A DNA stretch of 36,157 nt, from the NCBI GenBank assembly GCA_902796855.1, contig CADBQN010000013.1, forward strand, positions 1-36,157, written 5' to 3'. Source of the stretch: an uncultured Bacillota bacterium. Its GTDB lineage: Bacteria; Bacillota; Dehalobacteriia; UBA7702. The notes below the pieces were generated by a model. That model did no database searches. It saw only the letters and a list, made by a program, of their open reading frames with translations, and was not told the DNA's origin. Made by a program: the position numbers and the translations under genes. Of this stretch, positions 20,424 to 26,064 are shown one piece after another; within the stretch, counting starts at the first letter, position 1, and every line of letters begins with the position of its first letter.

Positions 20424-20452
20424 TTGGCAAAAACGTCAAAATATGATAGAAT
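20424..20452 (+). promoter_or_regulatory. Extended -10 promoter for the A2M-like operon
   Basis: TTGGCA (20424-20429), a 17-bp spacer and TAGAAT (20447-20452) preceded by TGA, an extended -10 element. It lies about 30 bp ahead of the ATG at 20482. Confidence 0.72.
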
Positions 20453-20481: not shown

Positions 20482-23400
20482 ATGAAAGAGAAAACGGCAA
20501 AACTGAGCTCAAAAAAATACAGTACCTTCTTTTTCGCCGGAGCCTGCGTTATTTTCCTGGTCCTCGCGGCGCTGCTTTACTTTGCCTCCGGTGAGGAGAA
20601 CGGAGCGTATTATTACGAGGACGAAGAAGATCTCGCCCTCGTCTCCGCGTATCCCGCCGACATGGGCGGCGTTTCTCAGGATCAGACCATCATCTTGGAA
20701 TGGACGCATCCCGTTTCCGTCTCTGCCGCGGACGACGCGGTGATTCGCCCCTCGGTCCGGGGGAAATGGAGCGTCGCCGGGAACAAACTGATCTTTACGC
20801 CGCAAAAGCTCTCTCCCGGGACGTATTACACGGTGTCGATCCCCAAGGGCACGGTAATGAACGGCGACGGCGAGATCCTTCGCGATAACGTCTTTTTCGC
20901 TTTTGAGACAGAAAATCCCTCGCTGCGCTTCCCGAAATCCGAGGCCTTTTCCGTCGCGGGACGGAGCTTCGCCTTTACCGATCTGGACAGTGTTTCCATC
21001 CCCGTTTCCTATATTGGCGGGAAGGACGGTTCCGTCAATGTCCGGGTCTGTAAAGCCGAAAACAGCGACGCCTTTATCGACGCTTTCGCGAAGCTGTTCG
21101 CCTACCCGTCCTGGGCAAAGCTTTCCATTGCCCGTTTCCGTGCGCCGGAAAAGAATTTTCACGAGATCCTCGATACGGATCTGGCCGTGATCCGTGAAAA
21201 CGGCTCCGCCAGAGTCGATTTGGGCTCCCTCCCCGAAGGCCAGTACCTCGTAAAACTGATGGCGGCGGACAGTCTGTACGAAGCGGCGGTAACGGTCAGT
21301 CCTGTTGACGCCGCCGAATTCTTCGACCGGGGCAGTCTCGGTGTCTGGAGCCACAGCAACGGTTCCGCAAACGGCGGCGCTGAAGTGATTTCCGGAGATA
21401 AAAGCTATACCTGTGACGAAAACGGCTTTGTATCGGTGCCGTTCCGTTTTGAGCCGCGCCACATCAACGCCGATCCGACCTGTCTCGCGCTGAAGGTGAA
21501 GAACGGCGGTGACGAACTCGCACTGTTTATCCCCGCCGATGAGGTCGCCGAATCGTATCGGACGGAACTGTTTGTCAATAAGCCCCTCATCGATGTCGGC
21601 GAGACGATCCGCCTTTCCGGCTCCGTCTGCTCGGCGGCGGGAGCGCCGCTGGACGATACGGCGGAAGTGGCTTTCCGTTCCTCCGCCGGTCTTATCGACA
21701 GGACGAAAGTGAAAATCGAGAACGGTACCTTTACGCTGGAACGCGAGGATCTTTCCCTGGCTGACGGCGATTACCGTTTTGTGCTCCAATATAACGGCAG
21801 AAATCTCGGCGCGGTTTCTTTTCGCGTCGGTAAATCAAAGCACCCTCTGTTCCTGGACGTGGAAGTGTCCGAAGATCATCCGCTCAGCGGTGATTCGGTC
21901 CGGTATACCGCCGTTCTGACGGATCGCGGCGGCAATCCCGTCACCGTGGGCACCGTCGCCAAAGACGGCGGCGAGGGAATCCCCGTTGATGAAGAGGGGA
22001 AAGCCGTTTTTAAAGAGGTTGTTTACGCCGACGGGGAAAATGGCGCCGCCCTTCAAAGCGCCGTTTTTACCGCGGATTCTCCCTGCGGAACGGCGGAAAA
22101 AACGGTTTCTTCCGTTGTGATCGGGGGTTCGGAAGATCCAATCCCTCCGGCGGAGGATGAGCCGGAAACGGGTATTCGGGATGGCGAGGTTTTGGCCCTC
22201 GCCTATGACGGCGACGGTCTCCGCGCCGCCGGGGAGAATGACGATGTCCTGGCCCGTCTGGTCTATCAGGACGGTTTGTATACCGTGGATTCCTCCGAAA
22301 ACAAAGGCCGTTTTTCCGTAGTTGACGCCATCGAAGTGAGCGGCGGCGACACCATCGATCTTTCCGCCGCTTTGACCGGCGCTCCCTGCCGTGTTGCCGC
22401 GGTCTCGCTGTGCAAAGGCGAAATCGCCCCGCGGCTCTGCGGCGTGGATCGCCGCGGCGAGGGGCTGCGCGACCTCTGTCAGGGCGAAATCGAGGAAACA
22501 CAGGTCTTTTTCGGCACGAACCAGATCGACGCCGTTTTTTCGACCCTCAACCGGAACGGCACTTATTTTGTCCGTCTCGCTGCGGAAACAATGGGCGGCA
22601 GTGTCGTGACGCGCTATATCCCCGTGACGATTGACGGCGGCGCCCTCCGCTGCGCCGACGATTGGAATGTCGCCGCCGGAAAGACCTGGCCGCTTTCGTT
22701 CGCCGTCCGCTCGGAGGAACCTCTCGATTATATTGTCACCGTCGCCGACCAACGCCTTGACGGTGAGGGGGAAGGCGCTGTTTCCGTTGATGTCGAAGGT
22801 CTTGAACCGGGACTGTACAGCGGTAAAATCGATCTGTATAACGGTGATGATCTCATCGCGTCGAAAAAAATCAAAGTGACCGCCTACGAAAAGCCGATCG
22901 TCTTCGCTTCCGCGCAAACGGAAAAGACGGAACGCGCTTTCGCCGCTTACCAGGTGAAAGAAGAGTCCGCGGACACTTTTTCCGAACTGTTTGATATTCT
23001 ACTTCTCCCCGGTGACCAGATCCTTCAGCGTATGGGCTGCGTCCTGTTCTGCGGTACCATCGGCGAGGGCATTGGCTGGGACGCTTCTTATGAACGGAAT
23101 GATTTTCGTTCGCTCCAGGAATGGGACGGCGGTTTTGCCCGTCGGAAAGGCGGCAGCAGCGATCTGCTTCTCTCCGTTCTCGTGGCCGAGCGGGAAGAGT
23201 TCGAATGCGACCGCGGCTCCCTTCTCGCTTACATCAAATCGAGGCTCAGTTCCGCCGCGGATGAACAGACGGCGGCTTTGGCCTGTTGGGGTCTGTGCTG
23301 TTTTGATGTGGACTGTTCCGGCGTCATGGAGACGCTCCGGGAAAGTGACGGTCTCGACGACTACGCGTTGATGTATCTCACCGAGGCGTACTGCGCCGCG

Positions 23401-24054
23401 GGGGATAAAAAGACCGCTTCGGAGCTTTATCAAAAAGCCTACGGGCGCTTCGTCGGCGACGGCAGTATCCTTAAAAACAAAGGAGAGGCCGATCAGACCC
23501 GCATCATGGAGATCAGCTTCCTCCAGGATATCGCCTGGAAGCTTCAGCAGAAAAATGATGAGCAGATGATCGGTTTCCTGATGAACTGTGACATTCAGGC
23601 CCAGACCGTGCGTTACCTGCTGATGTCCGCTCTTCTGCGCACCGTGAGCGAGGAGGACATCGCTCCGCTTCGGGGAGACGCCGCTCCCGGTTATACGCCT
23701 CTCTATCTCAGCGAGAACAGCGTGGGCAAAACAGATACGCTGCCGGTCACCTCGGAATCGGAGGGAACGCTGAAGACGGGAGACGTCGTTAAAATGACGG
23801 TCTCCTGGTCCGGCGGGAAAAACAGCATTTATCTGGTCTGCGCCAAAAACACGAAAAACGCCTCGGTCCTTGAATCCTACGGTTTAAAAAGCGACCGCGG
23901 CCATTACGAACTGATTACCGACAGAAACGACGCGACGCTGGCGTTCCGCGCCGACGGCGAAGGCGAAAACGTCCTTCCAGAAATATATGTGTATGACCTG
24001 ACCCACGGTGAAATCGTCGGCGCTGCCGGCGGCGGATGGAAGGTGACGAAATGA
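20482..24054 (+). CDS. Membrane-anchored alpha-2-macroglobulin-like protein lacking the thioester
   Basis: A 1190-residue extracytoplasmic protein anchored by one N-terminal helix (about 15-36, no lipobox). An SbsA/Big_5-type Ig-like domain covers about 52-143. Macroglobulin-like domains follow, with FVNKPLIDVGETIRLSGSV (364-382), which resembles the MG2 start, and HPLSGDSVRYTAVLTDRGGN (466-485). An acidic linker lies at about 550-566. An all-helical region with LQEWDGGFARRKGGSSDLLL (878-897) matches the alpha/alpha toroid of A2M proteins. Where YPYGCxEQ is expected, the protein reads LLPGDQILQR (841-850), so the thioester Cys and Glu are missing. The C-terminal LKTGDVVKMTVSW fits the receptor-binding-like end domain. 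The protein is shorter than typical bacterial A2Ms. Family call is by motif order only; protease trapping by thioester is unlikely. Confidence 0.72.
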   Translation: MKEKTAKLSSKKYSTFFFAGACVIFLVLAALLYFASGEENGAYYYEDEEDLALVSAYPADMGGVSQDQTIILEWTHPVSVSAADDAVIRPSVRGKWSVAGNKLIFTPQKLSPGTYYTVSIPKGTVMNGDGEILRDNVFFAFETENPSLRFPKSEAFSVAGRSFAFTDLDSVSIPVSYIGGKDGSVNVRVCKAENSDAFIDAFAKLFAYPSWAKLSIARFRAPEKNFHEILDTDLAVIRENGSARVDLGSLPEGQYLVKLMAADSLYEAAVTVSPVDAAEFFDRGSLGVWSHSNGSANGGAEVISGDKSYTCDENGFVSVPFRFEPRHINADPTCLALKVKNGGDELALFIPADEVAESYRTELFVNKPLIDVGETIRLSGSVCSAAGAPLDDTAEVAFRSSAGLIDRTKVKIENGTFTLEREDLSLADGDYRFVLQYNGRNLGAVSFRVGKSKHPLFLDVEVSEDHPLSGDSVRYTAVLTDRGGNPVTVGTVAKDGGEGIPVDEEGKAVFKEVVYADGENGAALQSAVFTADSPCGTAEKTVSSVVIGGSEDPIPPAEDEPETGIRDGEVLALAYDGDGLRAAGENDDVLARLVYQDGLYTVDSSENKGRFSVVDAIEVSGGDTIDLSAALTGAPCRVAAVSLCKGEIAPRLCGVDRRGEGLRDLCQGEIEETQVFFGTNQIDAVFSTLNRNGTYFVRLAAETMGGSVVTRYIPVTIDGGALRCADDWNVAAGKTWPLSFAVRSEEPLDYIVTVADQRLDGEGEGAVSVDVEGLEPGLYSGKIDLYNGDDLIASKKIKVTAYEKPIVFASAQTEKTERAFAAYQVKEESADTFSELFDILLLPGDQILQRMGCVLFCGTIGEGIGWDASYERNDFRSLQEWDGGFARRKGGSSDLLLSVLVAEREEFECDRGSLLAYIKSRLSSAADEQTAALACWGLCCFDVDCSGVMETLRESDGLDDYALMYLTEAYCAAGDKKTASELYQKAYGRFVGDGSILKNKGEADQTRIMEISFLQDIAWKLQQKNDEQMIGFLMNCDIQAQTVRYLLMSALLRTVSEEDIAPLRGDAAPGYTPLYLSENSVGKTDTLPVTSESEGTLKTGDVVKMTVSWSGGKNSIYLVCAKNTKNASVLESYGLKSDRGHYELITDRNDATLAFRADGEGENVLPEIYVYDLTHGEIVGAAGGGWKVTK

Positions 24055-24893
24055 CAAAAACGCGTAAAATCTGCATTTTCCTCGCTTTCGCCGCGCTGTG
24101 TTGGATCGCGGTGGCGGGCTGGACTTTTGTGAACGGACGCCTCGGTTCCTCGGTGGATCCCATTTACGGCAACGTGTTCAACGCGACCCTTTTGGAACCT
24201 GACAGGACGTATGACTACACCGGGGAAACGGACGATCTCGATGACAGCACCATCGGGGCGATTCTGCCGTCGCCGGCGGCCAACAGCGCGCTGACGGCCC
24301 GGGCGATGGCCGCCCTTGCCGAGCGGTGGTCCGATAAAGTGATCCTCGTCGTCACCTTCGACCGTTTTACCGGTCCCAAAGCGGTCACGGCGTGGCAGGA
24401 CTGGCAGACGCCCTTCGGTATCGTTCAGGTCGACGGGAACAGCCTCGTCCATTTGCAGGAAGAGGGGGCGATCACGGATAACGCCGTCATGACAAACAAC
24501 GACGCCATCAACGGATTTATGCCCTATTTTTCCCGGTATTTTCCGGACAAGCGCGTCGTTCCCCTGATTTTTAATACCGCCGCCGGAATCGATTACGCCG
24601 CCTCGTACATGGACCGTCTCGCCGCCCGGCGCGACTATTTCCATGTCGTGATGGTGACGCCGCCGGAGGATGCGGCGCTGACCGTCACCGACACCGAAAA
24701 ACTCACCGCTCTCTTTGACGACGCGGAGCGAAGGGATCTTTCCGGCATCGTCTCGCCGCTGGACTGCTGTGAACTCCGGGCGATGAAGAAAATTCTTCAA
24801 TATGACGGCGCGGACGTCCTTTCGGTGATCGGTGAGGGCGGTTCCGGCGAGGCCTCCTTTGATGATTTCGCTGTTTTTTACGGGGTGAAGTAA
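24051..24893 (+). CDS. Membrane-anchored MEMO/AmmeMemoRadiSam-B-like protein with altered active site
   Basis: A 280-residue protein with one N-terminal membrane helix (about 6-24) and an extracytoplasmic domain. The domain follows the MEMO fold order: GAILPSPAANSA where the family has a V-P-H motif, KVILVVTFDRF where it has a second His-bearing motif, WQTPFGIVQVD (the family W-TP-G-VxVD signature), KRVVPLIF, DCCEL near the C-terminal cysteine site, and FAVFYGVK at the end. The metal-site histidines of MEMO proteins appear to be absent, and NNDAI stands in place of EHSI. Classical members are soluble and are linked to AMMECR1 and radical SAM genes, neither of which is adjacent. Start at 24051 overlaps the upstream stop codon (ATGA). 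An ATG at 24036 is a possible alternative. Homology is plausible, not proven. Confidence 0.6.
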   Translation: MTKTRKICIFLAFAALCWIAVAGWTFVNGRLGSSVDPIYGNVFNATLLEPDRTYDYTGETDDLDDSTIGAILPSPAANSALTARAMAALAERWSDKVILVVTFDRFTGPKAVTAWQDWQTPFGIVQVDGNSLVHLQEEGAITDNAVMTNNDAINGFMPYFSRYFPDKRVVPLIFNTAAGIDYAASYMDRLAARRDYFHVVMVTPPEDAALTVTDTEKLTALFDDAERRDLSGIVSPLDCCELRAMKKILQYDGADVLSVIGEGGSGEASFDDFAVFYGVK

Positions 24894-24894
24894 A

Positions 24895-25761
24895 ATGAAA
24901 CCTGATTTCAGAACGTTTTTAAAAGAAACCCGGCACATTCTGCACTGCGGCGCCACCGGTACGGAGCTGATGAAGATCGGCGGCGAGACGCCGGGGCCCG
25001 TCAACAACGCCACCCGGCCCGCGGATGTTCTGGCCATGCAGCGCCGGTACGCGGATCTCGGCTGTCAAATCGTCCTGGCCAATACCTTTGGCATGAACCC
25101 GCTTTTCGCCGCCGTTCATGCTGGACAGTATGACTGGCGGGAACTGAACCGCGCCGGCGTCGCCATCGCGAAAGAGGCCTCCGCCGGCCGATCCTATGTC
25201 CTCGGCAACATCGGCCCCGTTGGGGAAATGCTGGAGCCCTTCGGCACCCTGACGAGGGAAGCGGCTTACGACGCCTACCGCTCCCAGGCCGAGGTTCTGG
25301 CGGAATGCGGCATTGACGGTTTTTCCGTACAGACCTTTTTCCATTTGGAGGACATCAAATTGGCCGTCGCCGCTGTTCGGGACGTCAGTGATCTTCCCGT
25401 CTGCGCGCACCTCGTTTTTAACGCTCAGGGGGCGACGATGATGGGAGATACGCCGGAGCGCTGTTATGAGGAATTGCTGCCTTTGGGCATTGACGTATTT
25501 GGTCATAACTGCGGTGAGATCGACGCCCATACGCTGGGGGATCTTTTGGCGCCTGTGGCCGAAAAAGCGGAAATCCCGATCAGCGCTTTGCCCAACGCCG
25601 GGGTTCCGAGAACGGTTGACGGCGAGCTTGTCTACGATATGACGAATGAGGATTTTCGTTCGGGGACAGAATATCTGATGTCGAAAGGTGTTCGCGTCCT
25701 CGGCGGCTGCTGCGGCGTGAACGCCGGGCACATTGAGGCGATTGCCGATCTCTTTGGATGA
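24895..25761 (+). CDS. Homocysteine S-methyltransferase-domain protein
   Basis: A 288-residue single-domain protein like the N-terminal homocysteine-binding domain of MetH. It has GATGTELMKIGG, VLANTFGMNP, YVLGNIGPVGEMLEPFG and the zinc-binding cysteines in FGHNCGEID and LGGCCGVN. No B12, folate or activation domain is attached, so it would need a separate methyl donor, such as a corrinoid protein or S-methylmethionine. None is encoded nearby. It starts 1 bp after the MEMO-like gene and is presumably in its operon, although no functional link is obvious. It is cytosolic, with no signal peptide. Confidence 0.9.
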   Translation: MKPDFRTFLKETRHILHCGATGTELMKIGGETPGPVNNATRPADVLAMQRRYADLGCQIVLANTFGMNPLFAAVHAGQYDWRELNRAGVAIAKEASAGRSYVLGNIGPVGEMLEPFGTLTREAAYDAYRSQAEVLAECGIDGFSVQTFFHLEDIKLAVAAVRDVSDLPVCAHLVFNAQGATMMGDTPERCYEELLPLGIDVFGHNCGEIDAHTLGDLLAPVAEKAEIPISALPNAGVPRTVDGELVYDMTNEDFRSGTEYLMSKGVRVLGGCCGVNAGHIEAIADLFG

Positions 25762-25778: not shown

Positions 25779-25800
25779 CCGCGTTTTCTTAAAAGCGCGG
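25779..25800. terminator. Possible bidirectional terminator between convergent genes
   Basis: CCGCG-TTTT (25779-25787) pairs with AAAA-CGCGG (25791-25800, one bulged G) around a short loop. It lies in the 27-bp gap between the methyltransferase gene and the minus-strand PRC-barrel gene, and overlaps the latter's stop codon. No clear T run follows on either strand, so confidence is low. Confidence 0.35.
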
Positions 25801-26064
25801 ATAGGGGCGGTCGATCATAAAATCGGGGATGTTCTGTCCGGTGCTCTCCACCAGGATGACATCGCACCCGATTTTTTTGATTTCATGCCACGGTACGCTC
25901 ATCGCTTCCCTGCGGCGGAAAACGCGACCCCGGTCCGCCGGGAGGACGATGCCCTGGACGCGGCCGCCTTCTGCGTCGATTTCAAAATCCCGTATCTGGC
26001 CCAGACTGCGGCCGTCGGCGCTGTTGATGACGTTTTTCAGCGTCATATCGGATAAACGGATCAT
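25789..26064 (-). CDS. YlmC/YmxH-family PRC-barrel protein
   Basis: A 91-residue PRC-barrel protein. MIRLSDMTLKNVINSADGRSLG and IRDFEIDAEGGRVQGIVLPADRG match the YlmC/YmxH group, which is annotated as sporulation-related in Bacillus and Clostridia but also occurs in non-sporulating Bacillota. WHEIKKIGCDVILVE closes the barrel. AAAGGAG precedes the ATG by about 12 nt on the minus strand. It is a single gene, divergent from the CoA-transferase gene. Function is unknown; PRC barrels generally bind RNA or protein partners. Confidence 0.88.
   Translation of the reverse strand: MIRLSDMTLKNVINSADGRSLGQIRDFEIDAEGGRVQGIVLPADRGRVFRRREAMSVPWHEIKKIGCDVILVESTGQNIPDFMIDRPYPRF

Follow-up and report, generated by a model that had tools for sequence, protein, structure and literature searches.

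The window, a stretch of 36,157 nucleotides that covers positions 1 to 36,157 of contig CADBQN010000013.1 from an uncultured bacterium of the class Dehalobacteriia (Bacillota; assembly GCA_902796855.1), carries three tightly packed genes on its forward strand. The first (20482 to 24054) encodes a membrane-anchored, thioester-less protein of 1,190 residues with the predicted fold of alpha-2-macroglobulin (A2M), a protease trap, and has orthologues in the genomes G001 to G003. The second (24051 to 24893) encodes a membrane-anchored protein of 280 residues with the predicted fold of MEMO1, a metal-binding protein in humans, but without the metal-ligand histidines. The third (24895 to 25761) encodes a homocysteine S-methyltransferase of 288 residues (PF02574, E 5e-53). 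The A2M and MEMO genes share the four bases ATGA at 24051-24054, and a single base separates the MEMO stop codon (24893) from the methyltransferase ATG (24895). An alternative start of the MEMO gene is possible at 24036; the ATGA overlap requires the start at 24051. A gap of 213 bp lies between the upstream floA and NfeD genes (the floA operon) and the A2M gene, and the neighbors at this locus are the floA operon genes, MEMO, and the methyltransferase, with no adjoining PBP1C, AMMECR1, or AmmeMemo radical SAM gene. The overlap and the methyltransferase gene after one base, both described in the original prediction, were thus read directly in the sequence, and its remark that neither PBP1C nor AMMECR1 adjoins the pair was borne out, the AMMECR1 gene of this genome being on a different contig.

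A promoter-like site is present on the forward strand at 20424 to 20452, about 30 bp 5' of the A2M start, and consists of TTGGCA, 17 nt, and TAGAAT, with a TG before the -10 element. It matches the consensus at 10 of 12 positions, and the region gave 3 such sites against 2.0 expected; because consensus sites of this kind hardly exceed chance in the region, we consider it suggestive only. On the reverse strand, a small gene (25789-26064) is convergent to the methyltransferase gene, and a similar gene is found at the equivalent place in L048; its product presumably resembles a PRC-barrel protein of the YlmC/YmxH type.

Pfam and NCBIfam alone gave either Big_5 or nothing for the large protein (Big_5 was its single Pfam match), and its assignment therefore required family profiles and structure prediction. 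A model built with the family alignment was locally good and poor overall (pLDDT 70, pTM 0.41), and its best Foldseek matches were the A2Ms of E. coli (ECAM) and Salmonella (E 8e-33, prob 1.00). Profile-profile comparison by hhalign aligned residues 45 to 1184 with full-length A2Ms (prob 100, E 4e-42). The protein has the series of MG/Ig domains and the helical thioester-type domain that characterize the A2M superfamily, and we regard the predicted A2M fold as secure. Its N-terminal membrane helix (20527 to 20586, residues 16-35; helix 2-37 in the AlphaFold model) is preceded by a Lys-rich stretch and followed by a Big_5 Ig-like domain (20620 to 20910, residues 47-143), of which there is one here vs two in the full-length relatives checked. 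An all-helical domain (22960 to 23637, residues 827-1052), assigned from DSSP of the model and alignment to relatives, would be the equivalent of the thioester domain. The CxEQ thioester motif is absent from the protein, and the aligned position is occupied by GDQILQ (23011 to 23028, residues 844-849), in place of the thioester GCxEQ or the G-x-R-[VIL]-[ED]-Q of the clade.

The protein is also shorter than its relatives. The reference A2M at L049 has 1,615 residues, in which Pfam recognizes Big_5 twice, bMG3, MG2, the bait-region domain, and A2M. With respect to this protein, that of the window is missing the first 124 residues, which form the first Ig-like domain, and has a gap after residue 563 that corresponds to residues 677-836 of the L049 protein; what remains of the bait-region domain is reduced. 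In comparison to full-length A2Ms, approximately 170 residues are absent, including most of the bait-region domain, and the site of this loss is a segment of low confidence (22132 to 22647, residues 551-722, pLDDT under 50). The window locus had no match to the bait-domain profile PF07703, and no genome of the window's family had a match to PF00207. A weak bait-domain match on contig C83, considered as a second A2M of the same genome, proved not to be an A2M. In the family f3 of the class, shorter A2M paralogues of 1,090-1,371 residues with no adjoining MEMO were observed (L053, L055, L057, L058, and L059), and these have deletions near the same place.

The small protein has its N-terminal membrane helix at residues 7-26 (24069 to 24128; AlphaFold helix 3-31). 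It scored 25.3 bits with Pfam PF01875, below the cut-off of 27, and 28.1 bits with TIGR04336 (AmmeMemoRadiSam protein B; cut-off 26). A PDB sequence search with MEMO relatives gave no real match, and the connection was bridged via a canonical Patescibacteria MEMO. The model obtained with the family alignment (pLDDT 79) keeps the MEMO core, and the best PDB matches in Foldseek were the MEMO1 structures 7M8H and 7KQ8 (E 1e-8, prob 1.00); the MEMO fold predicted in this way is likewise secure. The original prediction had proposed a thioester-less A2M-like and a MEMO-like protein, each with a single N-terminal membrane helix, and named structure prediction as one check. Both folds were found, the thioester motif is indeed missing, and hydrophobicity and the AlphaFold helices agree on one helix per protein.

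The iron ligands of MEMO1 are H49, H81, and C244 (PMC11081632). At the positions equivalent to H49 and H81, both histidines are replaced in the window's protein, by Ser and Asp, respectively: ILPSPAANS (24261 to 24287) stands in place of the VxPHH motif with the first His ligand, and VVTFDRFTG (24348 to 24374) in place of the GPNH motif with the second. The Asp-x-x-His motif is also gone, whereas the clade motif WQTPFG (24402 to 24419) is retained. The complete metal motif (both His and Asp-x-x-His) was present in 39 of the 39 relatives outside the window's family and in none of the three within it. Two His plus a Cys or carboxylate are accordingly not found in G000, G001, and G003, nor does a conserved polar set take the place of the ligands in these genomes. 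Equating Cys244 of MEMO1 with the Asp that is invariant in the LDSP motif of the clade, which would give a possible 2-His-1-carboxylate site, looks attractive by eye but is an idea only, because neither hhalign nor MAFFT puts both residues in one column.

The same gene order is found in three other genomes of the window's family and in many other families, including the families f1, f2, f3, and f4 of the class, and the pair is therefore not due to chance. In an even set of 348 genomes of the phylum, 21 of the 22 strong MEMO matches (over 50 bits; rows not mutually independent) had an A2M bait-domain match about 3 kb upstream on the same contig and strand. The exception was G313, where the two matches are on separate contigs. 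This tally omits weak MEMO matches, many of which are frames of 450-500 residues that coincide with AMMECR1 matches. A scan of named genomes with the MEMO profile, which did not ask for an A2M, found Bacillota and Patescibacteria genomes and an upstream A2M at 65 of the 80 loci with a secreted MEMO (63 by HMM and 2 by tblastn), a proportion that is not a population estimate, since those genomes closest to the query are the ones retained by such a scan. Pair-bearing Bacillota include Tepidanaerobacter, Petroclostridium, Pseudobacteroides, Dethiosulfatibacter, and Formimonas warabiya, the class of which is Dehalobacteriia in GTDB. Among 145 Patescibacteria genomes, at least six pairs had both genes within 4 kb of each other on a single contig, and one further pair, the seventh, had the opposite gene order. 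MEMO usually follows the A2M with the same 4-base overlap. Our computational survey thus shows that adjacency and co-inheritance extend over a dozen or more families of Bacillota and several lineages of Patescibacteria. We refer to an A2M gene directly upstream of a gene for an extracytoplasmic MEMO, on the same strand, as the module, and the window's pair has this arrangement. As to the proposal that a neighborhood search would find the pair beyond this one genome, it occurs in many genera, and the open-access literature searched contained no description of this pairing, in line with the statement that no such system was known.

The pairwise distances of A2Ms and MEMOs were correlated (r = 0.80 for 67 distinct pairs, with 0 of 2,000 permutations as high), and for 53 main-clade (thioester-less) pairs outside the window's family r was 0.93. 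This correlation between protein distances shows shared inheritance rather than contact. A homocysteine methyltransferase gene is close 3' of the pair at three of the four f2 loci examined and is not a general part of the module. At the f2 loci L049:12663-15492, L050:4622-7436, and L051:9398-12005, the genes after the pair encode an ion-channel-like protein, an Amidohydro_2 protein, and a relative of the homocysteine methyltransferase, the identities of these downstream genes being derived from Pfam on L049 only. At L118:200-4909, tblastn revealed a full-length A2M relative to which no long reading frame corresponds under table 11, possibly because of frameshifts or a different genetic code.

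The A2Ms of the main clade are without CxEQ, and most carry G-x-R-[VIL]-[ED]-Q at the thioester position. Since the thioester Cys is missing across the main clade, its loss is older than the window's family. However, ten Patescibacteria A2Ms adjoining MEMO keep YPYGCxEQ (L124, L127, L128, L131, L135, L136, L142, L146, L158, and L167); in A2Ms of the same phylum with no adjoining MEMO, CxEQ is often retained. Because the motif is present in some MEMO-adjoining A2Ms and absent in others, the pairing is independent of the thioester. The view that both proteins have lost their catalytic residues and act as binding or scaffold parts thus stands for the window's family and fails for the module, in which 39 of 39 relatives retain the MEMO histidines and ten A2Ms have CxEQ; as far as sequences tell, it describes one derived branch.

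Clues to the function of the module come from gene neighborhoods and domain fusions. An ECF sigma factor gene is directly upstream of 12 of the 14 MEMO-adjoining A2Ms in which the membrane helix lies after residue 45, whereas this holds for none of the 51 with an early helix (Fisher p 2e-11; rows related). The ten upstream genes tested by Pfam encode proteins with sigma-70 regions 2 and 4. The sigma-linked A2Ms, which belong to Bacillota and Patescibacteria, have a cytoplasmic N-terminus of 50-130 residues. Such an extension, encoded beside a sigma gene, would suit a membrane anti-sigma factor whose ectodomain is an A2M, and these proteins are possible A2M-anti-sigma fusions; no anti-sigma family in Pfam matched the extensions. 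An ECF sigma gene 5' of the A2M was observed at L062:2328-7977, L063:3625-9184, L075:7721-13526, L079:2693-8465, L110, L120, L129, L150, and L173. In Patescibacteria, the extracytoplasmic MEMO is fused to PGA_cap (CapA-type) in eight proteins scanned, two of which adjoin an A2M. These fusions are at L146:7785-9662, L171:5862-7583, L159, L161, L163, L168, L177, and L178. In addition, one MEMO with no adjoining A2M is near a gene for a cell-wall hydrolase with LysM domains. Taken together, the sigma link, the PGA_cap fusions, and the hydrolase neighbor indicate the cell envelope.

In the MEMO tree, the window's family joins the f2 pairs with a support of 98-99. As f2 has the full metal motif, this motif disappeared along the branch leading to the window's family, which shares its MEMO branch with metal-competent relatives and no longer has their intact motif. 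The A2M tree does not place the family, and any placement of the window's A2M is unreliable because of long branches. According to the alignments, loss of the MEMO histidines, of the N-terminal Ig domain of the A2M, and of most of the bait domain is confined to the window's family. The pair evolves fast: identity to G001, within the genus, is 48% for the A2M and 54% for MEMO vs 90% for a downstream CoA-transferase-like gene. It is a fast-evolving, apparently catalytically dead branch of a pair that, by sequence comparison, is conserved across two phyla.

Such rates raise the question of decay, namely that after the loss of the MEMO active site the pair of this family came under relaxed selection and is turning into pseudogenes. 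The very long branches to the family in both trees, the fast evolution of the pair, and the loss of one Ig domain and about 170 residues around the bait domain would fit this scenario, as would a frameshift near MEMO codon 206 in the sister genome G002 (L047:7537-8420), where the C-terminal part runs on in another frame. That frameshift may, however, be real or an assembly error, the assembly having about 360 contigs. Moreover, open frames are seen for the A2M in four genomes (28-48% identity to that of the window) and for MEMO in three, with both frames open in G000, G001, and G003. For the window's pair, differences amount to 0.32 at second vs 0.60 at third codon positions for the A2M and to 0.26 vs 0.61 for MEMO, so that changes are roughly half as frequent at second as at third positions. 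We therefore judge decay to be rather unlikely.

A protease trap resembling MagD, with the A2M capturing proteases without a thioester and MEMO serving as a membrane-associated stabilizer, is quite unlikely. MagD does trap protease without a thioester and needs its operon partners (PMC5764988), and the full-length relatives keep the bait-region domain; in the window's protein, however, this domain is mostly missing and undetectable, and no mag-type partners are present. We consider it very unlikely that the pair is not dead but re-purposed, a new reaction being carried out by other residues in the MEMO pocket: the conserved MEMO core, the WQTPFG motif, and the selection that is still visible are consistent with this idea, but G000, G001, and G003 share no conserved polar residues in place of the ligands. 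That the MEMO gene encodes protein B of an AmmeMemoRadiSam system next to which the A2M lies incidentally is extremely improbable, since, despite a TIGR04336 score above the cut-off, the AMMECR1 of this genome is a 504-residue frame on contig C69, many other pair-bearing genomes have their listed AMMECR1 far off or on a different contig, canonical AmmB proteins (Patescibacteria examples) are without a membrane helix and beside a small gene with AMMECR1-like sequence, and an A2M adjoins 65 of the 80 secreted-MEMO loci.

The explanation that we favor, and hold to be fairly probable as a whole, is that the window's pair is a derived member of a conserved envelope A2M-MEMO module and now forms a non-catalytic, co-expressed binding complex. 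From co-transcription, co-inheritance, and shared topology, we infer a putative physical complex of the two proteins. The A2M would face outward as a large scaffold or conformational sensor, binding MEMO and positioning it at the cell surface; tethered to the membrane, the A2M of the module may sense damage or proteases. In most lineages, MEMO would be a metalloenzyme with a putative chemistry on a cell-surface substrate, and where an A2M with a cytoplasmic extension is encoded beside an ECF sigma gene, it may act as a membrane anti-sigma factor that relays its own state to transcription. For the window's family, where catalysis is predicted to be gone, a non-catalytic, co-expressed binding complex is the most likely role. 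More tentatively, A2M and extracytoplasmic MEMO could constitute an undescribed surface system of Bacillota and Patescibacteria, in which an A2M sensor is combined with a MEMO metalloenzyme, some members are ECF-linked A2M-anti-sigma fusions, and catalysis is absent in the window's family.

Among known systems, the type II A2M MagD/YfaS of Gram-negative bacteria (PMC5764988) has, like the window's pair, no thioester and an envelope location, and it works in complex with proteins of its own operon, a likeness that is predicted for the window's pair. MagD protects against peptidoglycan-targeting effectors (PMC12663445). By analogy, it would be the nearest experimental model for the window's pair. 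However, MagD possesses a bait region, is encoded in a six-gene mag operon, and lacks an intrinsic membrane helix, whereas the window's A2M carries such a helix, is paired with MEMO, and has almost no bait domain left; of the type II features, it thus shares the absence of CxEQ and has neither the bait region nor the six-gene operon. The type I A2M found with PBP1C (PMC3328433) has the same fold and domain series as the window's A2M. It keeps CxEQ and adjoins PBP1C, neither of which applies to the window's protein, although some MEMO-adjoining Patescibacteria A2Ms keep CxEQ. In the literature consulted, bacterial A2Ms are sorted into two types by thioester and gene neighbors, and a third, MEMO-linked type that crosses phyla and occurs with and without the thioester would alter this picture.

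To our knowledge, there is no agreed molecular function for MEMO1, and a secreted bacterial MEMO that has a constant large partner, is sometimes fused to PGA_cap, and in some lineages adjoins an ECF sigma gene would offer a handle on MEMO function. AmmeMemoRadiSam protein B and the MEMO family (TIGR04336, PF01875) share the MEMO fold with the window's protein, which passes the TIGR04336 cut-off. Unlike protein B, however, it is predicted to be membrane-anchored and extracytoplasmic, with no adjoining AMMECR1 and radical SAM genes and no ligand histidines, and the automatic name "AmmeMemoRadiSam protein B" would misplace the whole set of these proteins. Human MEMO1 (7KQ8, 7M8H; PMC11081632) has a fold in common with the window's MEMO (Foldseek prob 1.00), but is intracellular and binds iron via H49, H81, and C244 (PMC11081632), whereas in the window's protein Ser and Asp occupy the two His positions; its family would thus provide a natural "active-site-dead" comparison for MEMO.
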